A program made the position numbers and the translations under genes. This document shows, piece after piece, positions 6,905 through 44,007 of a DNA stretch of 44,318 nt; position 1 is the stretch's first letter; the number at the start of each line of letters is the position of its first letter. Location: contig DASTFB010000092.1 in assembly GCA_035709005.1 (NCBI GenBank), forward strand, positions 1 to 44,318, given 5' to 3'. A model generated the notes under the pieces. It ran no database searches. It was not told the origin of the DNA and saw only the letters and a list, made by a program, of their open reading frames with translations. The DNA is from Candidatus Methylomirabilota bacterium (lineage in GTDB: Bacteria; Methylomirabilota; Methylomirabilia; Rokubacteriales; CSP1-6).

Positions 6905-7504
6905 ATGGCCCAGTTGAGGATTCCCCTGGATGCGCAGCGGTTCTCCAAAGGCCTGACCTGGAAGGACTACATGGCCCAGATGGGAGACACGCGCGCCCGC
7001 ACCGAGCAGAACTACAAGAACTCGGAGCTGACCCCCGAGGAGAAGAAGTTCTTCGGTAGCATCACGCAGGTCCCCTACGTCATGATGCTGGCCGAGAACT
7101 GGTGCGGCGACGTCCACCGCAACTCCCCGCTCGTCGCCCACATCTGCGAGGCGATGCAGAACTGCGACTTGCGCGTCTTCTTCCGCGACAAGGAAACGGA
7201 CCTGCGCGACACCTTCCTCAACAACGGCTACCAGTCCATCCCGGTCGTCGTCTTCTTCGACAAGGACTGGAACGAGATCGGCCGCTGGGTCGAGCGCGCG
7301 CACGCGGCGACGGCCAAGGTCGCCGGGATCCGGTCCCGGACGGTGGAGGCGGCTCCTCCCGACAAGCAGGAAGCCGCCATGGGCGAGTACCGCAAGCAGG
7401 TCCAGGCCGAGTACGAGGTGCCCGGGGGCCCGCTGTGGCGGTCCGCCGCCCAGGAGATCAAGGCGCTGCTGGAGCAGCGGCTCGGGCTCGCCGCCAAGAA
7501 GTAG
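6905..7504 (+). CDS. Thioredoxin-fold protein with a single active-site cysteine
   Basis: A 199-residue cytoplasmic thioredoxin family protein (similar to the Thioredoxin_9 group). The active-site region is MLAENWCGDVHRNSP (Trp66, Cys67), so the usual WCxxC or WCGDC lacks its second cysteine (Val70). The cis-proline loop is SIPVVVFFDKDWNEIGRW (Pro113). A helical C-terminal extension (about 135-199) is charged. AAGGAGA lies 7 nt before ATG 6905, a good ribosome site. One cysteine only suggests a monothiol exchange, peroxiredoxin-like or purely binding role rather than a disulfide reductase. It ends 14 nt before an inverted repeat that may terminate it. Confidence 0.85.
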   Translation: MAQLRIPLDAQRFSKGLTWKDYMAQMGDTRARTEQNYKNSELTPEEKKFFGSITQVPYVMMLAENWCGDVHRNSPLVAHICEAMQNCDLRVFFRDKETDLRDTFLNNGYQSIPVVVFFDKDWNEIGRWVERAHAATAKVAGIRSRTVEAAPPDKQEAAMGEYRKQVQAEYEVPGGPLWRSAAQEIKALLEQRLGLAAKK

Positions 7505-7518
7505 TCCGTTCCGCGCCC

Positions 7519-7563
7519 GGTCCTGACACCTTTCCGCCCCAAGGTCGGGAGGGTGTCAGGACC
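7519..7563. repeat. 12-bp perfect inverted repeat between the thioredoxin and LivM genes
   Basis: GGTCCTGACACC (7519-7530) and GGTGTCAGGACC (7552-7563) are perfect reverse complements separated by 21 nt. The right arm overlaps the GTG start of the permease gene at 7553. It may be a transcription attenuator, a REP-like palindrome or the terminator of the thioredoxin gene; no T-run follows on the plus strand. No second copy was noticed in the window. Confidence 0.55.
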
Positions 7564-8596
7564 CGGCGATGCCTCGCCTGTGCGGATCGAGACCCCTACC
7601 ACGGCGCCCCGTCGGGCCGCCGTCCTCGTGATCGTCCTGCTCGGCTTGCTGCTGTCCGTCCCCGGCCTGGTGGGCGCTTACTGGGTGATCGTCATCAGCT
7701 CGGCGCTCGCCCTGTCCATCGCGTGTCTGGGCGTGAACCTCCTGCTCGGCTACACCGGGCTTCTCTCGCTCGGCCACGCGGCCTATTTCGGGACGGGGGC
7801 CTACGCCGGCGCCTTTCTCTATGCGTTCGGCGACGCCGAATCGCTGGAGACGTATCTGGCCGCGGGCGTCGGCGCCGCCACGGCCCTGGCCGCCGTCTCG
7901 GGACTCGTCTGCGTCCACGCCACGCGCCTGCACTTCAGCATCCTGACCGTGGCACTGGCCCAGGTGCTGCACTCGCTCTTCGTCGGCGGCGCGGTATTCC
8001 TGCCCTTCGGCGACCGGGGCAAGGGCTTCTACCTCGTCGGGCACGGCGGCTTCCACATCCCCCGGTTCACCATCGCCGGGATCGATCCGGGCCCGGAAGC
8101 CTTCGTCACGGTCCTGTACTACATCATCCTGACGGCGTTCCTGATCTCCCTCGGGCTCATGTGGCGGCTCGTGAGGTCACCCTTCGGCACGGCGCTGCGC
8201 GCCATCCGGGACAACGCCACCCGGGCGGCCTGCGTGGGCATCCCCGTGCGGAGCTATCGCTGGCGGGCCTTCGTCATCTCGGCCATGTTCACCGGCCTGG
8301 CCGGCGGACTCACCGGCCAGCTCGACCGACAGATCACTCCCCAGCAGCTCGACTGGTTCTTCTCGATCCAGCTCGTCGTGGCCACCGTCCTGGGCGGGCC
8401 CGGGCGCTTTTTCGGCCCGGTGGGCGGCGCCTTCCTCGTCGTGGCCCTGAAGGAGGTCGCGCTGCGATTCGCCCTCTACCACAACGCGATCCTGGGTGTC
8501 CTGCTCGTGGCGATCGTGATCGCCCGCCGTCGCGAGCGGGCCGCCACTCCCGACCGCTTCATCCCGGAGGTGGGCCGATCGGCGCCCTGGGCCTGA
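7553..8596 (+). CDS. livM: Branched-chain amino acid-type ABC transporter permease LivM
   Basis: A 347-residue inner-membrane permease of the LivM type, one of two channel subunits of branched-chain amino acid/urea/amide ABC importers. About eight hydrophobic helices are visible. Family signatures are GVNLLLGYTGLLSLGHAAYFGTGAYAG near the N-terminus, TLHFSIL-type helix RLHFSILTVALAQVL, the EAA-like cytoplasmic loop SPFGTALRAIRDNATRAACVGI, and VVATVLGGPGRFFGPVGGAF. The first usable start is GTG 7553, inside an inverted repeat; GTG 7580 is an alternative. LivH, LivG, LivF and a binding protein are not in the window, so it is an orphan here. It converges with the phosphotransferase gene, stop to stop, 8 nt apart. 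Confidence 0.9.
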   Translation: MSGPGDASPVRIETPTTAPRRAAVLVIVLLGLLLSVPGLVGAYWVIVISSALALSIACLGVNLLLGYTGLLSLGHAAYFGTGAYAGAFLYAFGDAESLETYLAAGVGAATALAAVSGLVCVHATRLHFSILTVALAQVLHSLFVGGAVFLPFGDRGKGFYLVGHGGFHIPRFTIAGIDPGPEAFVTVLYYIILTAFLISLGLMWRLVRSPFGTALRAIRDNATRAACVGIPVRSYRWRAFVISAMFTGLAGGLTGQLDRQITPQQLDWFFSIQLVVATVLGGPGRFFGPVGGAFLVVALKEVALRFALYHNAILGVLLVAIVIARRRERAATPDRFIPEVGRSAPWA

Positions 8597-8604
8597 CGTC
8601 AGCT

Positions 8605-9672
8605 TTAGTCGGCGCCGAACGCCCGCTGCACGAGGGCCCACGCCGCCTCGGCGAGCGGGCGAGCCCGACGACCGCGATCGCGAGCGTTGGGGTCGTTGGC
8701 GGTCCCGGCCAGTACCCGCCCCATGATCCCCTGGGCGATGGCGGCGAGCCGGAACATCGCGAAGGCGATGTAGAAGTCCCACTGCGGGATGCCCGGGCGC
8801 CCGGTGCGCCGGCAGTACCAGTCCAGGTATTGCGCCTCGGACGGGATACCGGCCGGACGTTCCTGGCCGGCAAAGCCCTCGAACTGCTCGTGGCGCAGGC
8901 GAAAGGGCAGGCAGTTGTAGCCGAGATCGGCCAGCGGGTGACCGAGCGTCGACAGCTCCCAGTCCAGCACGGCGGCGATCCGCGGTTCGCTCGGATAGAT
9001 CAACATGTTGCCGAGCCGGAAATCGCCGTGGACCAGGGTCGTCTCGTCGCCCGGCGGGATGTGGGCGGGCAGCCACACGATGAGGCGCTCCATGGGCTCG
9101 ATCGTTTCGGTCGCCGACGCCCGGTACTGCGAGGTCCAGCGATGGAGCTGCCGCGCGAAGTAGTTCCCCGGCTTGCCGAAGTCCTCCAGCCCGGCCGCCC
9201 GCCAGTCCACCGTGTGCAGCCGCGCCAGAACGTCGGCCAGCGCCTCGTAGATCCCGGCCCGGTGCTCCGGCTCGACGCCGGGCAGCCGCGGGTCCTTGAA
9301 CACACGGCCCGGCACGTACTCCATCACGAAGAACGGCGTGCCGGCGACGGCCGGATCCTCGCACAACGCGTAGGTGCGAGGCACGGGGACGCCGCGGCCG
9401 GCCAGCGCCGTCATCACGCGGTACTCGCGCTCCACGGCGTGCGCGGAAGGTAGCAGCTTGCCCGGTGGCTTGCGACGCAGCACGTACTCCCCGCTGCCGG
9501 CCTGCAGGTAGTACGTCGGATTCGACTGCCCCCCCACGAACTGCCGCATCGTGAGAGGGCCCCGGAAGCCTTCGACGTGACCCTCCAGGTATCGCTCCAG
9601 CGTCGGCACATCGACCCGATGGGTCTCCAGCACGTCGATCGTTCCGGCCAGGGGCGCCGCAGGGTGCGTCAT
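8605..9672 (-). CDS. Phosphotransferase family protein (APH/ACAD10-11 kinase-like)
   Basis: A 355-residue protein of the aminoglycoside phosphotransferase (APH) fold, in the group related to the kinase-like domain of ACAD10/ACAD11, which is linked to hydroxyacyl-CoA and fatty acid metabolism rather than drug resistance. The N-lobe has the glycine-poor loop FVGGQSNPTYYL and an ATP-binding Lys in VLRRKPPG. The catalytic loop is LVHGDFRLGNM and the metal-binding motif is VLDWELSTLGHPLADLGYN. ATG 9672 fits the family better than the TTG at 9684; no clear ribosome site is visible. Both directions around it are tight: 8 nt to the convergent LivM gene, and about 90 nt to the LOG fragment upstream. 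Confidence 0.88.
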   Translation of the reverse strand: MTHPAAPLAGTIDVLETHRVDVPTLERYLEGHVEGFRGPLTMRQFVGGQSNPTYYLQAGSGEYVLRRKPPGKLLPSAHAVEREYRVMTALAGRGVPVPRTYALCEDPAVAGTPFFVMEYVPGRVFKDPRLPGVEPEHRAGIYEALADVLARLHTVDWRAAGLEDFGKPGNYFARQLHRWTSQYRASATETIEPMERLIVWLPAHIPPGDETTLVHGDFRLGNMLIYPSEPRIAAVLDWELSTLGHPLADLGYNCLPFRLRHEQFEGFAGQERPAGIPSEAQYLDWYCRRTGRPGIPQWDFYIAFAMFRLAAIAQGIMGRVLAGTANDPNARDRGRRARPLAEAAWALVQRAFGAD

Positions 9673-25630: not shown

Positions 25631-27490
25631 ATGATCGACGTCAAGACCGCCGACCGGGAGCTGATGACCTACATCCGGCCGCAGACCTTTCCGGTGGCGA
25701 TCCGGATGCTGAGGCCCGGCGAGGAGATTCCCGAGAAGGCCAAGCGCCCGGCCAGGGACTTCAAGAAGCTCAGCATGAACTGCCAGGTCATCGACATGGC
25801 GCGCCGATATGGCTGGACCATCGCCCTGACCCGCGAGGATCACATCTGCTCGCTGGGGATCGCCGCCCTCGGCTTCGAGAAGCCGACGCACCTGCACAAC
25901 TCCGGCACGCTGTGCGAGGGCATGTACACGGAGACCAAGGAGGCCGGTCAGCGCTCGGAAGTCGCCGTCGATCGCTTCGAGCCGGGTGAGTTCTCCGCGC
26001 TGCTGGTCGCTCCCCTGGAGCGGGCGTCGTTCGAGCCCGACCTGGTGTGTGTCTACGGCAACCCGGCCCAGATCATGCGCCTGGTCCAGGCCGCCCTGTG
26101 GAAACAGGGGGGCAAGCTCACCTCGTCGTTCGCGGGGCGCGTGGCCTGCGCCGACATCATCGTGACGACCATGCAGACCGACCGCCCTCAGGTGATCATG
26201 CCCTGCTCGGGTGATCGGATCTTCGGCCAGACGCAGGACCACGAGATGGCCTTCACGATTCCCTGGCCCCAGATGGAGGACATCCTGGCCGGTCTGCGCG
26301 GCACGCACGCCGGCGGCATCCGCTACCCCATCACGCAGTTTCTGGAGTACGAGCCGAAACTGCCGCCCCGCTACCTGGAAGCCAACCGGGTGTGGGACGC
26401 CGAGCAGGGCCGCGCCCCCTACACGCCCCGCGACCGGGTCGTGGCCGCTTACAAGCGGACCTTCGCCGACCGCGTGCCGACGTACCCGATCGTGGCATCG
26501 TTCGCGGGGACGCTCGACGGGCTCTCCATCGAGGAATACTGCACGAGCCCCAGCAAGGCCATCAAAGCCATGCTGAACTACTTCGAGCGGTATCAGCCGG
26601 ACGTGGTGCTGGCCTACAACGATCTGGCCAAGGAAGCGGAGGCCTTCGGCTGCCGGGTCAAGTACTCCGACTACGTGGTCCCGTCCATCGACGTCCACGT
26701 ACTGGCCGAGGACAAGGCCCGGCTGGCCACGCTGGCCATGCCCGATCCGTACCGCACGGCTCGGCTGCCCGGATTCCTCGAGCAGTGCGAGGCGCTGGTG
26801 AACGCCCGCCCGCCGACGGCCATCGGAGCCGTGGCCGTGGGCCCCTGGACGATCGCCATGCTCCTGCGCAACCCGGAGACCATGCTGCTCGACACGTTCG
26901 AGGACCCGCAGTTCATTCACGACCTCATGCGGGTCGCCACGGACTTCTGCAAGCTGTGGGGCGACGCGATCGTGAAGACCGGGATCGGGCTGAGCTTCTC
27001 CGAGCCCACGGCGTCCATCAGCCTGATCTCGCCCGACAATTACCGCGACTTCATCGCTCCCTATCACAAGGAGCTCGTCGCCCATTTCAAGGCCAAGAAA
27101 GTGGGTGTGACCACCCACATCTGTGGCACGACGTACCCGATCTATGAGGACCTCATCCAGTGCGGCTTCACCACGATCTCCTTCGATCTGGACCAGCAGG
27201 CCGATCCCAGCCTCTACGTGGACCAGCTCGACCGCTTCATGCAGGTCGCCCGGGGGCGGGCGGTGGCGATCGGCAACGTCGACGCCACGAAGTTCGAACG
27301 GGCGACGCGGGAGGAGATCGAGGCCGAAGTCAAGCGCTGCATCGACAGCGCGGCGCGGCACTCCGGCTTCATCCTGTCGACGTCGTGCGAGATCCCTCCG
27401 CGCTCGAACCCGGACATCGTGCGCTGGTTCATGGACACCGCCCGGGAGTACGGACGCTACGACCGGATCTTTAGCTCGGAGAGCGGCTAG
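25631..27490 (+). CDS. DUF169-UroD (MtaA-type methyltransferase) fusion protein
   Basis: A 619-residue fusion. Residues about 8-245 match the DUF169 family (COG2043), with cysteines at 51, 73, 95, 140, 173 and 192 and the segment MPCSGDRIFGQTQDHE. Residues about 265-615 match the UroD/MtaA/CmuA clan. There the methyltransferase zinc site is seen as His497 and Cys499 in THICGTTYP and Cys586 in STSCEIPPRSN, while the arginine-rich porphyrin pocket of true uroporphyrinogen decarboxylase is not visible, so a corrinoid-dependent methyl transfer is more likely than heme synthesis. ATG 25631 has GAGGAGG 5 nt upstream. No corrinoid protein lies beside it, but one is encoded 16 kb away. The DUF169 half may be metal- or cluster-binding; its role is unknown. 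Confidence 0.85.
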   Translation: MIDVKTADRELMTYIRPQTFPVAIRMLRPGEEIPEKAKRPARDFKKLSMNCQVIDMARRYGWTIALTREDHICSLGIAALGFEKPTHLHNSGTLCEGMYTETKEAGQRSEVAVDRFEPGEFSALLVAPLERASFEPDLVCVYGNPAQIMRLVQAALWKQGGKLTSSFAGRVACADIIVTTMQTDRPQVIMPCSGDRIFGQTQDHEMAFTIPWPQMEDILAGLRGTHAGGIRYPITQFLEYEPKLPPRYLEANRVWDAEQGRAPYTPRDRVVAAYKRTFADRVPTYPIVASFAGTLDGLSIEEYCTSPSKAIKAMLNYFERYQPDVVLAYNDLAKEAEAFGCRVKYSDYVVPSIDVHVLAEDKARLATLAMPDPYRTARLPGFLEQCEALVNARPPTAIGAVAVGPWTIAMLLRNPETMLLDTFEDPQFIHDLMRVATDFCKLWGDAIVKTGIGLSFSEPTASISLISPDNYRDFIAPYHKELVAHFKAKKVGVTTHICGTTYPIYEDLIQCGFTTISFDLDQQADPSLYVDQLDRFMQVARGRAVAIGNVDATKFERATREEIEAEVKRCIDSAARHSGFILSTSCEIPPRSNPDIVRWFMDTAREYGRYDRIFSSESG

Positions 27491-34953: not shown

Positions 34954-36270
34954 TCACAGGGGGGGGCGCGCGGTGAAGTTCAGCACGCGTTCGCACCAGG
35001 CGGCCACCCCGAGCAGTCGGGTCGTGGCCCCGGTGGCCTGGACCAGCTGAACCGCGTAGGGCAGCCCGGACGGCGCCAATCCGCTGGGCAACGTGATGGC
35101 CGGCACCCCCGCGTTGCTCCAGGGCGCGCAGAACGACCCGTCGCCGGTGGAGCCCAGACCGGCCGGGGCCGGCCCCGGCGCCGTGGGCATGATCAGCGCA
35201 TCGTGAGCGGCGAGCAGCGGCATGATGTCGTCGCGAAAGGCGAGCCGCTGCCGGTTGGCGCGCGCGTACTCGGTGGCGGCGCGCTTGAGGCCCGCCTGGA
35301 TCAGGCCCCGGATCTCCGGACCGTACTCGCCGGCGTGCTGAGCGAACGACTTCTCGTGGTAGGCCGCCGCCTCCGCCTCCAGCACGATGGCCCCCGCCTC
35401 CCGGCCCGCCGCGTACGAGGACGGCAGAGCGACCGTGACGATCTCGGCGCCGGCAGCGGCGAACCGGTCGGCCACCGCCTTCACGTGCGCGGCCATGTCG
35501 GGCGCGGAGGCCTCCAGGGCTTCGGGCGCCAACGCCAGACGGGGCCGGCTGACGGCGGCCGGCTCGACGTCCCGGCCGGCCAGGATGCCGAAGCCCAGCG
35601 CCACGTCCTCCACGGCGCGCGCGAATACGCCGACGTGGTCCAGCGACCAGGCGAGCGGTACCACGCCGTCCACGGGCACGATGCCGTAGGTGCTCTTGAA
35701 GCCCACCACGCCGCAGTAGGCGGCCGGGCGCAGGACGGAGCCGACGGTTTGAGAGCCCAGGGCCAGCGGCACCATGCCGCTGCTCACGGCCGCCCCCGAG
35801 CCCGCCGAGGAGCCGCCCGGGGTGTGGGCGCGGTTCCACGGGTTGCGAGTCGGCGCCGGATCGCGGTAGGCGAACTCCGTGGTGGCCGTCTTGCCCAGCA
35901 CGATGGCTCCGGCCGCGCGCAGCCTGGCCACGCAGGTTGCATCCGTGGTCGCGCGCCGGTGCGCCCAGGCTCGCGCGCCCGCCGTGGTGGGCATTCCCGC
36001 CACGTCGATGATGTCCTTGATCCCCACGGGGACACCGTGCAGCGCGCCGGCGAACCGTCTGGCCTGCGCTTCGGCCTCGCACTCGCGCGCAAGAGCCAGG
36101 GCGCCAGCCTCGTCGACGTGGACCCACGCGCGCAGCTCCCCGTCCAGCGCCTTGATCCGGGCCAGGCAGGCTTCCACGAGCGCGACGGGAGACAGTCGGC
36201 CGGCGCGAATCGCCTGGGCCGCCTGGCGCGCCCCCAGCTCGGTCTGCGCGGGGGAATCAGTGGAGGGCAT
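34954..36270 (-). CDS. Amidase (amidase signature family)
   Basis: A 438-residue amidase signature enzyme. The Ser-cisSer-Lys triad region is visible: Lys in PVGIKDIIDVAG, the glycine/serine stretch TPGGSSAGSGAAVSSG, and the nucleophile serine in ALGSQTVGSVLRPAAYCG. A variation is QTVGSV where GSDTGGS is more common. It hydrolyses an amide of unknown identity, and GatA-type Glu-tRNA amidotransferase function is unlikely since gatB and gatC are absent. The start overlaps the homocysteine methyltransferase-MetF stop by 14 bp. D-aminoacylase follows after 103 nt, with the repeat between. Confidence 0.9.
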   Translation of the reverse strand: MPSTDSPAQTELGARQAAQAIRAGRLSPVALVEACLARIKALDGELRAWVHVDEAGALALARECEAEAQARRFAGALHGVPVGIKDIIDVAGMPTTAGARAWAHRRATTDATCVARLRAAGAIVLGKTATTEFAYRDPAPTRNPWNRAHTPGGSSAGSGAAVSSGMVPLALGSQTVGSVLRPAAYCGVVGFKSTYGIVPVDGVVPLAWSLDHVGVFARAVEDVALGFGILAGRDVEPAAVSRPRLALAPEALEASAPDMAAHVKAVADRFAAAGAEIVTVALPSSYAAGREAGAIVLEAEAAAYHEKSFAQHAGEYGPEIRGLIQAGLKRAATEYARANRQRLAFRDDIMPLLAAHDALIMPTAPGPAPAGLGSTGDGSFCAPWSNAGVPAITLPSGLAPSGLPYAVQLVQATGATTRLLGVAAWCERVLNFTARPPL

Positions 36271-38107
36271 CGAGCACTTCGGCGACGACCTCGAACCGGC
36301 CGAACGAAGGCATCAGATAGACGCCGGCGTAACGGCGGCGAATGGCCTGGATCAGCTCCTGGGCCATCTCGATCCCCAGACGCAGCGCGCCTTCGCCGGC
36401 CGAGCGCAGGCGGGCGCGCACCGCATCCGGAATCGTGATGCCCGGCACCTCGTTGTGCAGGAACTCGGCGTGGCGGAAGCTGTGCAGGGGCAGCACACCG
36501 ACCACGACCGGCACCGGCGAGCCACCCGCCCGCTCGAAGAAGCGGTCGAGCGCCTGCAGATCGTAGACTGGTTGGGTCTGGACCCAGCGCGCCCCCGCCG
36601 CCACCTTGCGCTGGAAGCGCTCGATCTCGCGGCCCGGATCGGGGGCCAGCGGGTCCAGGGCGGCGCCGTAGCAGAAGCTCGTCGGCTCGCCGATCCCGTT
36701 GCCAGTGGCGTCCAGGCCCTCGTTCATCCGGCGCAGGACTTCCATGAGACCAACGGCGTCGACGTCGAACACCGCGGTCGCGTTGACGTAGTCGCCGGCC
36801 CGCGGGGGATCGCCGGTCATGGCCAGGATGTTGCGGATGCCCAGCGCGTGGCCGCCCAGCAGATCGGCCTGGATGCCCATGAGATTCCGGTCCCGACAGG
36901 TGAAGTGCATGTTGATGTCGAGGCCGGTAGCCTCGCGCACCAGGATGGCGGTGGGCAGGACCGACATGCGGACGCGGCCCAGCGAGCCGTCGTTGATGTC
37001 GACGACCTCCACGCCGCGCTCCTTGAGGAGCTTGGCGCCCTGGATCAGCTTCTCCACACTGTGCCCACGCGGCGGGTCGAGCTCCACCGTCACGATGAAG
37101 TCGCCCGCCTCGAGCTTGCGGCCCAGGAGCGTGGGCGCGGCCGCGCCGCGGAGGCCCGGGCTCTCCAACGCCTCGCCCGAGCGCACGCTCACCACCGGTC
37201 GCTGAGCCGGCCGGCGCACGGGAGCCCGCCGGTCGACGACGTCGCGCATCGCCGCGATGTGGAGCGGCGTGGTGCCGCAGCAGCCACCGACGATCCGGGC
37301 CCCCGCCTCGAGCATGCGCCCCGCCCACTCCGCCATGTAGGCCGGCGAGGACAGGTACATCAGGCGCTCGCCGACGCGACGGGGCAGTCCGGCGTTCGGC
37401 TGGATCGCCAGCGGGACGCCGCCGGCCTCGGGCAGCATGTGCTCCAGCACTTCGTAGAGGACGCTGGAGCCCACCGAGCAGTTGGCCCCCAGCACCGTCA
37501 CGTCCAGGGCGCGCAGGGCCCGCGCCACCTCGCCGCCCGTGCGGCCGGTGAAGGTCAGTCCTTCGTCGGTGAACGCCATCTGGGCCACGATCGGCAGGTC
37601 GGTCACCGACCGGATGGCCTCGATGGCCAGCGTGATCTCTGCGAGGTCGGAGAACGTCTCCACCACGAAAGCGTCGACCCCGCCCTCCAGCAGCGCCTCG
37701 GCTTGCTCGCGGAACGCCGCTGCCGCCTCGTCAGCCGTGACCGTGCCCAGGGGCGCCAGGTACTTCCCCAGCGGTCCCAGCGAGCCCAGTACGAACACGT
37801 CGCGCCCGCTGCTCTCGCGGACGTCGCGGGCCAGCTTCACCCCCTTGAGATTGATGGCCCGCACGTCGCCGGCGGCGCCGTGGACGGCCAGCTTGAAGCG
37901 GTTGGCGCCGAACGTGTTGGTCTCGATGCAGTCGGCACCGGCGGCGATGTAGTCACTGTGCACCGCCTCGACGAGCTTGGGCTGGTTGATGTTGAGGAGA
38001 TCGAAGCAGGCATCCATGGACACCCCGCGCGCGTAGAGCAAGGTGCCCATCGCGCCGTCGCAGAGCAGCGGCGCTTCGGCGAGCCGGCGGCTAAAGGCGT
38101 GCGGCAT
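36257..38107 (-). CDS. Bifunctional homocysteine S-methyltransferase/methylenetetrahydrofolate reductase
   Basis: A 616-residue fusion. Residues 1-300 form a homocysteine S-methyltransferase domain (BHMT family) with DGAMGTLLY, ETNTFGANRFKL, zinc ligands Cys210 (LGANCS) and Cys276/277 (GGCCGTTP). Residues about 330-616 form a MetF-type reductase (VTVELDPPRGHS, NILAMTGDPPRAGDYV, VQTQPVYDLQALDRFF), which reduces 5,10-methylene- to 5-methyl-tetrahydrofolate with NAD(P)H and FAD. YitJ of Bacillus has the same layout. The fused form probably couples methyl-folate supply to the methionine cycle; no corrinoid domain is present. ATG 38107 overlaps shikimate kinase by 17 bp, and its stop overlaps the amidase start by 14 bp. 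Confidence 0.94.
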   Translation of the reverse strand: MPHAFSRRLAEAPLLCDGAMGTLLYARGVSMDACFDLLNINQPKLVEAVHSDYIAAGADCIETNTFGANRFKLAVHGAAGDVRAINLKGVKLARDVRESSGRDVFVLGSLGPLGKYLAPLGTVTADEAAAAFREQAEALLEGGVDAFVVETFSDLAEITLAIEAIRSVTDLPIVAQMAFTDEGLTFTGRTGGEVARALRALDVTVLGANCSVGSSVLYEVLEHMLPEAGGVPLAIQPNAGLPRRVGERLMYLSSPAYMAEWAGRMLEAGARIVGGCCGTTPLHIAAMRDVVDRRAPVRRPAQRPVVSVRSGEALESPGLRGAAAPTLLGRKLEAGDFIVTVELDPPRGHSVEKLIQGAKLLKERGVEVVDINDGSLGRVRMSVLPTAILVREATGLDINMHFTCRDRNLMGIQADLLGGHALGIRNILAMTGDPPRAGDYVNATAVFDVDAVGLMEVLRRMNEGLDATGNGIGEPTSFCYGAALDPLAPDPGREIERFQRKVAAGARWVQTQPVYDLQALDRFFERAGGSPVPVVVGVLPLHSFRHAEFLHNEVPGITIPDAVRARLRSAGEGALRLGIEMAQELIQAIRRRYAGVYLMPSFGRFEVVAEVLDALH

Positions 38108-41661: not shown

Positions 41662-42387
41662 TCAGGCGCGACGGACGGGCCGGCGGATCGGAGCGCGCCG
41701 GTACTGACAGTCGGCCATCCAGCAGCGGGCGCACTGGCTGAAGTAGTGATCGACGCGGGCTTCGGGCCCAGCCCCGATCAGCAGCGAGATGGACTTTTCC
41801 GGCGTCATGAAGCAGGCCTCGTTGAGGTGCACGCCGACCGGCGCTCCCGGGCACAGCCGAAACAGCCGGGTCTGATCCCCCACATCCCAGGCGCCGTACC
41901 CAGGGCTGATCCGGTTGGTGACCTTCCAGCCGCGGGTCAGTCCTTCCTGGCAGAGCAGATCGTTGACGTACTCGGCCAGGCTCTCCACCGCCCCCGAGCC
42001 GACGCTGTCCAGCATGGCGGCCAGAGGCATCTCCCGCGCCTCCCAGAGCTGGCCCATGCGGCGCTCGAGGGCGTCGCCGATCGTCACGATGCCGGCGGCC
42101 AGATGGCGGACGGCACCCCAGCCGCGGGACACGCCAGGAATCGTGAGCGTGACGTCGTCCGCCTCCAGGGTGTCGCCTTGCTGCCGGCGCACGGCGGTCC
42201 AGCGGATGGCGGCCCGGGGCACGATCAGCCGCCGGCCGAGCGCGAGGGCTTCCTCGAAGAGGGCCAGCACGTCGGGGTCGGGCACGTCGATGCCGCGCTT
42301 GTAGCCCTGGAAGCGCAGCACCTCCTCGGGATCTATCTCGAGGGGGAGGTCGGTGAGGACGCTGACCTGTTCTTCCCTGAGCGCCAT
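41662..42387 (-). CDS. Standalone methionine synthase-type B12 reactivation protein
   Basis: A 241-residue protein matching the AdoMet-binding reactivation domain of MetH as a separate gene. Characteristic is RISPGYGAWDVGDQTRLFRL together with TPEKSISLLIGAGPE; this domain reduces and re-methylates cob(II)alamin formed by oxidation, using AdoMet and reduced flavodoxin or ferredoxin. Thermotoga maritima TM0269 is a known separate example. A C-terminal cysteine cluster (CARCWMADCQYR) may bind a metal or cluster, as in corrinoid reactivators. ATG 42387 follows the homocysteine methyltransferase stop by 28 nt. The next gene, the hydratase, starts 75 nt downstream. Confidence 0.9.
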   Translation of the reverse strand: MALREEQVSVLTDLPLEIDPEEVLRFQGYKRGIDVPDPDVLALFEEALALGRRLIVPRAAIRWTAVRRQQGDTLEADDVTLTIPGVSRGWGAVRHLAAGIVTIGDALERRMGQLWEAREMPLAAMLDSVGSGAVESLAEYVNDLLCQEGLTRGWKVTNRISPGYGAWDVGDQTRLFRLCPGAPVGVHLNEACFMTPEKSISLLIGAGPEARVDHYFSQCARCWMADCQYRRAPIRRPVRRA

Positions 42388-42415: not shown

Positions 42416-43342
42416 CTATCGGCGGCTCGTCGCCCTGCGGCTGCGCACTACATCTGCAATCAGCCGGAGGTGGGCGGGGGTGGAGCCGCAGCAGGCGCCG
42501 ACGATGTTGCAGCCGGCGTCGAGGAGGGCCGGGTACTCGCGGGCCATCGCCTCGGGTCCCAGCTCGTAGGTCACGCTGTCGCCGGTGGTGACGGGCAGCC
42601 CGGCATTGGGATAGGCCACCAGCGGGGCGTCGGTTGCGGCCCGCATCTCGCCGATGATGGCGATGGCCCGGTCGGGGCCGCGGCCGCAGTTCATCCCGAC
42701 CACGTCGGCGCCGGCAGCGAGCAGGTTGCGCGCGACCTCGGTGGGACTCTCGCCCCACATCGTGCGGTCGCGCTCGTGCAGCTCCTCGTACTGGAAGAAC
42801 ATGGTGGCCATCACGGGCAGGTCGGCCACGGCCTTGCAGGCGTGGATCGCGGCGACCGCCTCCTGCGGGAACATCATGGTCTCCACCGCGAAGAGGTCCA
42901 CGCCGCCTTCGGCCAGGGCCGTCGCCTGCTCCCTGAAGGTCTCGAAATACTCTTCGTCGGTCGTGTCGCCGAGCGGCTCGTACTCGGCGGGCAACCGGCT
43001 GGTGGGGCCGATGGAGCCGGCCACGTAAGCGCCGGGGGGAGCCACCGAGCGGACCAGCTCGGCGCCCTTGACGTTGAGCTCGCCGGTCCGGTCGCCCAGC
43101 GCATACTCGTTGAGCTTCAGCCGGGAGCCGCCGAAGGTATTGGTCTCGACGATCTCGCTGCCGGCCTCGAAGTAGCCTCGGTGGATCCCCCGCACCACCT
43201 CGGGGTGCGTGGCGTTCCACAGCTCCGGGCAGGCGCCGTTGAGCAGACCGGCGGCGAAGAGCATCGTGCCGTAGCCGCCGTCGAACAGGAGGACCTCGCC
43301 CCCGCGGATCCGCTCCACGATCTCCCAGCCGCGCGCCTTCAT
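42416..43342 (-). CDS. Homocysteine S-methyltransferase module (BHMT family)
   Basis: A 308-residue protein with DGGYGTMLFAAGL near the N-terminus, ETNTFGGSRLKLNEY, and zinc ligands Cys219 (VGMNCGRG) with Cys284/285 (VGACCGST). It corresponds to the N-terminal homocysteine module of MetH, but no folate, B12 or reactivation domain is attached; these last two are encoded by the neighbours. The usual role is methyl transfer from methyl-corrinoid to homocysteine, giving methionine. Other thiols or zinc-activated acceptors are possible. ATG 43342 overlaps the corrinoid protein stop by ATGA. It is a paralogue of the N-half of the MetF fusion encoded at 36257. Confidence 0.92.
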   Translation of the reverse strand: MKARGWEIVERIRGGEVLLFDGGYGTMLFAAGLLNGACPELWNATHPEVVRGIHRGYFEAGSEIVETNTFGGSRLKLNEYALGDRTGELNVKGAELVRSVAPPGAYVAGSIGPTSRLPAEYEPLGDTTDEEYFETFREQATALAEGGVDLFAVETMMFPQEAVAAIHACKAVADLPVMATMFFQYEELHERDRTMWGESPTEVARNLLAAGADVVGMNCGRGPDRAIAIIGEMRAATDAPLVAYPNAGLPVTTGDSVTYELGPEAMAREYPALLDAGCNIVGACCGSTPAHLRLIADVVRSRRATSRR

Positions 43343-44007
43343 CCGCGGACCTCCGCGGCCACGCCGAGGAGGGCTTTGGCCTTGACCACGGCCATGGTGG
43401 AGTCTTTGGCGTAGCCGTCGGCGCCGATCTCGTCGGCGAATGCCTGGCTGACCGGCGCCCCGCCGACCATGACCTTGACGCGTTCGCGCAGGCCGGCCTT
43501 GATGAGGGCGTCGATCGTGCGCTTCATGCCTGGCATGGTCGTGGTCATCAGCGCGGAGATCCCGACGATGTTGGCGCCGTGTTCCTGCACCGCGGCCACG
43601 AACTTCTCGGGCGCCACGTCGCGGCCCAGGTTCACCACCTTGAAGCCGGCTCCCTCGAGCATCATGGCGACGAGGTTCTTGCCGATGTCGTGCAGGTCGC
43701 CCTGGGCGGTGCCGATCACCACCACGCCGAGATGGTCGCCGGGGCGGGCGCTGGCCGTGATGAGCGGCTTGAGGAGATCCAGGCCGGCGTACATCGCGCG
43801 AGCCGAGAGCAGGACCTGGGGCACGTAATACTCGTTGCGCCGGAACTTCTCTCCGACGACGTCCATCCCCGGAATGAGCCCCTTGAAGATGAGGTCCTTG
43901 GGGTCCATCGCGAGCTCCAGCCCTTCCCGGGTCTTGCGGGCCACCGTGTCCTTGTCGCCCAGTATCAGCGCGCGCGCCATGGCCGGATAATCGAACGCGT
44001 CGCTCAT
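43339..44007 (-). CDS. Corrinoid (B12-binding) methyltransferase protein, MtbC/MtaC type
   Basis: A 222-residue two-domain corrinoid protein. Residues 1-85 form the helical cap (AMARALILGDKDTV, LIPGMDVVGEKFRRNEYYVPQVLLSARAM), and residues 92-222 the Rossmann-type cobalamin domain with GDLHDIGKN (103-111; His106 as lower cobalt ligand), GISALMTTTM and VMVGGAPV. Such proteins carry the methyl group in MetH and in methylamine/methanol methyltransferases. ATG 44007 starts the operon with the homocysteine methyltransferase and reactivation genes. The promoter is not evident; a PilZ-like remnant ends 21 nt upstream. Confidence 0.95.
   Translation of the reverse strand: MSDAFDYPAMARALILGDKDTVARKTREGLELAMDPKDLIFKGLIPGMDVVGEKFRRNEYYVPQVLLSARAMYAGLDLLKPLITASARPGDHLGVVVIGTAQGDLHDIGKNLVAMMLEGAGFKVVNLGRDVAPEKFVAAVQEHGANIVGISALMTTTMPGMKRTIDALIKAGLRERVKVMVGGAPVSQAFADEIGADGYAKDSTMAVVKAKALLGVAAEVRG

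Follow-up and report, generated by a model that had tools for sequence, protein, structure and literature searches.

The window analysed here is the whole of contig DASTFB010000092.1 (44,318 nucleotides) from a Candidatus Methylomirabilota bacterium of the Rokubacteriales (GenBank assembly GCA_035709005.1). It encodes a protein in which a DUF169 domain is joined to a domain of the UroD superfamily, and, further along on the opposite strand, a group of genes with predicted roles in corrinoid-dependent methyl transfer (Table 1). The first-pass annotation of this DNA had described the fusion gene as a DUF169 half joined to a UroD-clan half, and indeed both Pfam domains lie far over their cut-offs: DUF169 (PF02596 / COG2043) scores 206.5 bits against a cut-off of 27 and spans profile positions 2–208 of 209, and URO-D (PF01208) scores 200.2 bits against 23.9 and spans positions 1–346 of 346. 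The same two-domain reading frame is present at full length in relatives with 55–87% identity, so the fusion is neither a chance arrangement nor an assembly join, and these comparisons show it to be genuine and of long standing in the phylum. It is common across Rokubacteriales and occurs in some other Methylomirabilota. A search of 616 further genomes, comprising 251 Chloroflexota, 118 genomes of the phylum that holds Zixibacteriota, and 247 Desulfobacterota, gave no instance of it. Contig ends make the gene look split in G083, and assembly frame breaks do so in G077 and G094. A metagenome-assembled genome labelled Alicyclobacillus (L060, JAILZF010000001.1) also has the fusion, at 86% identity; this bin is probably mislabelled or contaminated.

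The UroD half of the fusion

The UroD half carries the His-x-Cys plus Cys site that the first-pass annotation had pointed out. These residues, H496, C498 and C586, fall opposite the HICG and GC motifs in an alignment to M. mazei MtaA and are kept in the fusions, the sole exception being one frameshifted assembly; the motif is also found in the Desulfobacterota relatives and the Zixibacteriota UroD proteins described below. A phmmer search of the PDB gave MtaA 4ay7 as the first match of the UroD half, and an AlphaFold2 model of the fusion (mean predicted local distance difference test score, pLDDT, 80.7) had 4ay8/4ay7 MtaA as its top solved match (E 9e-18; TM-score 0.81, target-normalised). Thus the fusion has in common with the soluble coenzyme M methyltransferases MtaA/MtbA (PDB 4ay7, 4ay8) a UroD-type barrel, the cysteine motif and the closest structural match, but it is only ~23% identical to them, lies under the family cut-offs and bears DUF169. 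The nearest curated families, MtaA/CmuA and MtaA/MtbA, give 91–127 bits, each below its cut-off, with TIGR01463 (MtaA/CmuA) at 126.7 bits against a curated cut-off of 235. The earlier description as MtaA/CmuA-like therefore holds in the sense of an MtaA-like, non-haem protein, but the protein stands outside the curated MtaA/CmuA family.

The family name URO-D, together with Asp331, the equivalent of the HemE active-site Asp, could suggest a normal uroporphyrinogen decarboxylase of the haem pathway whose N-terminus is unusual. However, the UroD half scores 39 bits with the HemE model, against a cut-off of 303, and in an alignment with the genome's own HemE, which shares the superfamily fold, the HemE signatures (the RQAGR arginines, the Tyr and the NLGH His) are missing from the fusion, which has the zinc-type motif instead. 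The same genome has a separate, true hemE on contig C8 (432 bits); of its two further UroD matches, one is the fusion and the other a free-standing paralogue that shares 68% identity with the fused half. Haem genes were not seen as conserved neighbours in the neighbourhoods examined. The first-pass annotation had held that the residues of uroporphyrinogen decarboxylase are lacking, and had named uroporphyrinogen-binding residues and haem-gene neighbours as the observations that would count against it; we looked at both and saw neither. Residues and HemE score rule out a haem role, which we consider extremely improbable, and the UroD half is very likely a zinc-type methyltransferase and not a HemE.

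In a UroD tree the fused halves cluster together and adjoin free-standing genes of Desulfobacterota. The free-standing Rokubacteriales paralogues nest within the fusion clade, and therefore look like secondary losses of DUF169.

Association with a corrinoid gene trio

The corrinoid gene at 43339 heads a conserved trio of corrinoid, homocysteine-methyltransferase-like and MetH-activation-like genes. Co-occurrence of this gene with the fusion had been proposed as a check, and among 95 Methylomirabilota genomes we found orthologues of both in 61, one only in 5 (the fusion in 2, the corrinoid gene in 3) and neither in 29 (Fisher p about 1e-18, with no correction for common descent). Thirty-seven genomes carry both genes on one contig, and there the two are linked, being convergent in 37/37 and 2.6–20 kb apart. 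G018, a member of a different family, lacks the malic enzyme and RRM neighbours yet keeps the trio, 5 kb off and convergent. No known RNA families (riboswitches) were found near the genes at Rfam gathering scores. A relative at class level has an unfused DUF169 orthologue, and at its locus L147 (G019:C72, 3136–6975) a corrinoid gene precedes two divergent UroD genes and one gene of the homocysteine-methyltransferase-like type.

Two known arrangements resemble this one. The Mlp proteins of type 1 mlp clusters are bacterial MtaA-like proteins tied to corrinoid proteins, with a proposed methyl-sulfur/selenium role (PMC10418091), whereas here a DUF169 fusion lies 16 kb from a trio with homocysteine methyltransferase-like and MetH-activation-like proteins. 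Separate MtgC/MtbC-like corrinoid and homocysteine-methyltransferase proteins also make up the split methionine synthase / MtgC-MtgE systems of Phaeobacter and Ruegeria (PMC5764234, PMC12478193). In contrast, no separate pterin subunit was found in the genome studied here, in which the homocysteine-methyltransferase-like gene is present by the corrinoid gene; its two pterin-binding domains lie in one MetH-length frame and one FolP-sized one. The MttB family is absent from the 13 genomes checked. With MetH/FolP-like pterin genes only and no MttB, few other partners are left for the corrinoid protein, and the UroD half of the fusion may fill the place of the pterin subunit.

Table 1 Features of the fusion gene and of the corrinoid gene neighbourhood in the window.
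Feature	Coordinates	Strand	Basis or remark
DUF169-UroD fusion protein, 619 amino acids	25631..27490	+	ATG start; single-gene unit, flanking genes on opposite strand
DUF169 domain (PF02596), residues 11-220	25661..26290	+	Pfam; AlphaFold2 model mean pLDDT 91.2
Cys51, invariant	25781..25783	+	35 diverse DUF169 sequences
Cys73, invariant	25847..25849	+	35 diverse DUF169 sequences
Cys173, invariant	26147..26149	+	35 diverse DUF169 sequences
Cys192 of PCSGDR motif, invariant	26204..26206	+	35 diverse DUF169 sequences
UroD-superfamily domain (PF01208), residues 265-607	26423..27451	+	Pfam; best solved fold 4ay8/4ay7 MtaA
His496-Ile-Cys498, candidate zinc ligands	27116..27124	+	Alignment, conservation
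Cys586, candidate third zinc ligand, replaces His of HemE NLGH	27386..27388	+	Alignment
Bifunctional homocysteine S-methyltransferase / methylene-tetrahydrofolate reductase; frequent in same neighbourhood	36257..38107	-	
MetH activation-domain-like protein, Cys-rich C-terminus; conserved third trio member	41662..42387	-	
Homocysteine S-methyltransferase-like protein (PF02574), Cys...CysCys zinc motif; conserved neighbour of corrinoid gene	42416..43342	-	
Corrinoid (B12-binding) protein, GDLHDIGK motif, MtgC/MtbC-like; proposed methyl carrier	43339..44007	-	Profile, synteny, co-occurrence

DUF169 and its pairing with UroD genes in other phyla

Cys51, Cys73, Cys173 and Cys192 are present in 35/35 DUF169 sequences from several phyla, and Cys95 in 30/35, so that DUF169 is cysteine-rich, as first described, in a modest sense. 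The first-pass annotation had conjectured that DUF169 supplies or activates a methyl donor or a cluster; the four invariant residues would fit a metal or cluster site, and we put the binding of a metal or cluster by DUF169 a little below an even chance. When the DUF169 model, which is a confident one, was compared with solved structures there was no match at E ≤ 0.001 (best E 0.29, best Z 5; a miss is possible), and therefore no function could be taken from the fold. In agreement with the earlier statement that DUF169 has no established function, a literature search for DUF169 or COG2043 gave passing mentions only, and the excerpts of the Mlp, MtgC-E, MesD/DUF1852 and CdmB literature describe no DUF169 component. 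Selenocysteine at in-frame stops in relatives was considered and rejected: five of the six loci have no stop or stops only at the gene end, and at the sixth (L028) the internal TGA lies past the loss of the protein's reading frame and is thus uninformative.

Close DUF169 relatives (47–56%) are free-standing in records from Planctomycetota, Gammaproteobacteria, Desulfobacterota-type genomes, Zixibacteriota, Bacillota and Chloroflexota. Their neighbours in Planctomycetota, Gammaproteobacteria and Bacillota (PheT, Lgt, CoA transferase, DUF72 and others) showed no consistent functional theme. A distant DUF169 paralogue in the same genome as the fusion (28% identical; L031, G000:C55:7000-22000, 7072–9348) lies directly before an HpaB-family gene, and HpaB also adjoins a UroD methyltransferase at locus L183.

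Separate DUF169 and UroD genes, which the first-pass annotation had proposed to look for beside corrinoid proteins in relatives, were found paired in the phylum of a Zixibacteriota genome. At 16 of the 17 DUF169 loci examined there, the exception being L222, a UroD-family gene lies downstream on the same strand, and in 13/16 the two genes overlap or are ≤50 bp apart. The UroD partners have the HxC and Cys motifs, yet are 14–19% identical to the fused half; the DUF169 proteins of these pairs are 46–50% identical to the fused DUF169. In the DUF169 tree the fused group and the Zixibacteriota group are not joined. Two recruitments, independent of each other, are therefore likely. Downstream of the pair at L119, L224, L227, L235 and L236 lies a gene for a GAF protein resembling free methionine-R-sulfoxide reductases. 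We also considered the pair as a replacement methionine synthase in Zixibacteriota and rejected this, as there was no contrast between the genomes that lack all of MetE, MetH and a corrinoid protein with the pair (5/16) and without it (8/16).

In Desulfobacterota, the closest free-standing UroD relative (L181, 43%) lies in an operon in the order pterin (methyl-folate) methyltransferase, corrinoid protein (56%), UroD. At L183, a UroD relative follows corrinoid, pterin methyltransferase, aldehyde dehydrogenase, AMP-ligase and HpaB genes. This catabolic-looking array could mean that the UroD half acts on an O- or N-methyl substrate as an MT1 enzyme (methyl-donor:corrinoid methyltransferase), with DUF169 as a substrate-recognition or reductive part, and the UroD superfamily indeed takes in O-demethylases and haloalkane dehalogenases (PMC13222342). 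However, sulfur chemistry is the better fit to both the conserved His-x-Cys...Cys motif and the fold match with MtaA, and the fusion is not accompanied by a substrate gene cluster, so we regard an MT1 role as unlikely. A short-chain fatty acid transporter gene lies directly upstream of free-standing UroD relatives at L187 and L191, and at L186 (2746–6188) a UroD relative (40%) adjoins CdhC-like and 2-hydroxyglutaryl-CoA dehydratase-like genes.

One Desulfobacterota DUF169 gene (L197) adjoins corrinoid, pterin methyltransferase and DUF1638-like genes, the last named by reading the sequence alone. DUF1638 is a family linked to reactivation (PMC5764234), and this locus and the four invariant cysteines would both suit a DUF169 that acts as a corrinoid-reactivation (reductive) domain in cis, with a cluster on the cysteines. 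On the other hand, the trio already has a MetH-activation-like protein, and DUF169 is paired with UroD also where no corrinoid protein is seen; we consider such a role very unlikely.

A proposed methyl-transfer route

We hypothesize that the fusion is a zinc-type UroD/MtaA-superfamily methyltransferase with an N-terminal DUF169 helper that works with the corrinoid protein encoded at 43339. In the reaction that we infer, His496, Cys498 and Cys586 would bind zinc, which would hold a thiol or methyl-thioether, and the enzyme would shift a methyl group between this zinc-held sulfur compound and the corrinoid protein. Methyl exchange with homocysteine/methionine would fall to the homocysteine-methyltransferase-like protein (42416), and cobalt that becomes oxidised would be rescued by the MetH-activation-like protein (41662). 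DUF169 would serve as a helper of the UroD enzyme in substrate binding or activation, probably through a metal or iron-sulfur cluster on its four invariant cysteines. Taken as a whole, we give this explanation an even chance. That the fusion works with the 43339 corrinoid protein seems probable from the genomic linkage; that the substrate is a methyl-sulfur compound whose methyl group is passed to homocysteine is more tentative, and we would sooner doubt than assert it. The likelihoods attached to these two claims, to the zinc-type assignment and to metal binding by DUF169 are judgements and were not computed.

Several observations weigh against this explanation. The co-occurrence of the fusion and the corrinoid gene largely tracks phylogeny, and in this window the fusion lies outside the corrinoid operon, on the opposite strand and 16 kb away. 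Some UroD-family methyltransferases, such as CdmB, are known to work without zinc (PMC13222342). At ~50 other DUF169 loci there is no UroD, corrinoid or pterin gene within 7.5 kb; DUF169 therefore need not always serve this chemistry and may have other uses. Furthermore, 10/16 Zixibacteriota pair genomes have no corrinoid match at E 1e-8, so that the delivery of methyl groups to a corrinoid protein may not be universal, and in some lineages the DUF169-UroD unit may act without one. The first-pass suggestion that the fusion feeds the 43339 protein thus gains from the co-occurrence and the conserved convergent synteny in Methylomirabilota, but may not extend to DUF169-UroD units in general.

The Zixibacteriota genomes with no detectable corrinoid protein would fit a corrinoid-independent thiol methyltransferase, in which DUF169, with another donor, donates methyl to a thiol held by zinc on the UroD barrel. 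A precedent is MesD, a MetE-type barrel methyltransferase that depends on a dedicated and functionally uncharacterised partner, DUF1852 (MesX) (PMC7857596), although there both the DUF and the barrel subfamily are different ones, and the MesD pairing was proved by genetics whereas ours comes from genomes alone. DUF169 is also the better conserved half in L098 (64% versus 47% for UroD). Against this stand the strong association of fusion and corrinoid trio across Methylomirabilota and the presence of the nearest free-standing UroD relatives in corrinoid operons. In addition, pair genomes are not short of MetE/MetH relative to non-pair genomes, which leaves a methionine-synthase role unsupported. 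A corrinoid-independent enzyme is, in our view, improbable.

Returning to the zinc-type methyltransferase with a DUF169 helper, a wider form of the hypothesis is that DUF169 represents a novel type of helper that binds a metal or cluster and serves such enzymes, recruited at least two times independently, and that the Rokubacteriales fusion feeds a folate-independent route from a methyl-sulfur compound through the corrinoid protein to homocysteine; we regard this form as speculative and somewhat unlikely to hold in full. One fusion lineage and one independent conserved gene pair tie DUF169 to zinc-type UroD methyltransferases, and its role is therefore testable with one protein and a few partners. 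The separate-gene pairing in unrelated genomes offers a first concrete handle on DUF169 function. If the corrinoid link is true, uncultured soil and subsurface bacteria would have an added methyl-transfer route that bypasses the usual pterin subunit.
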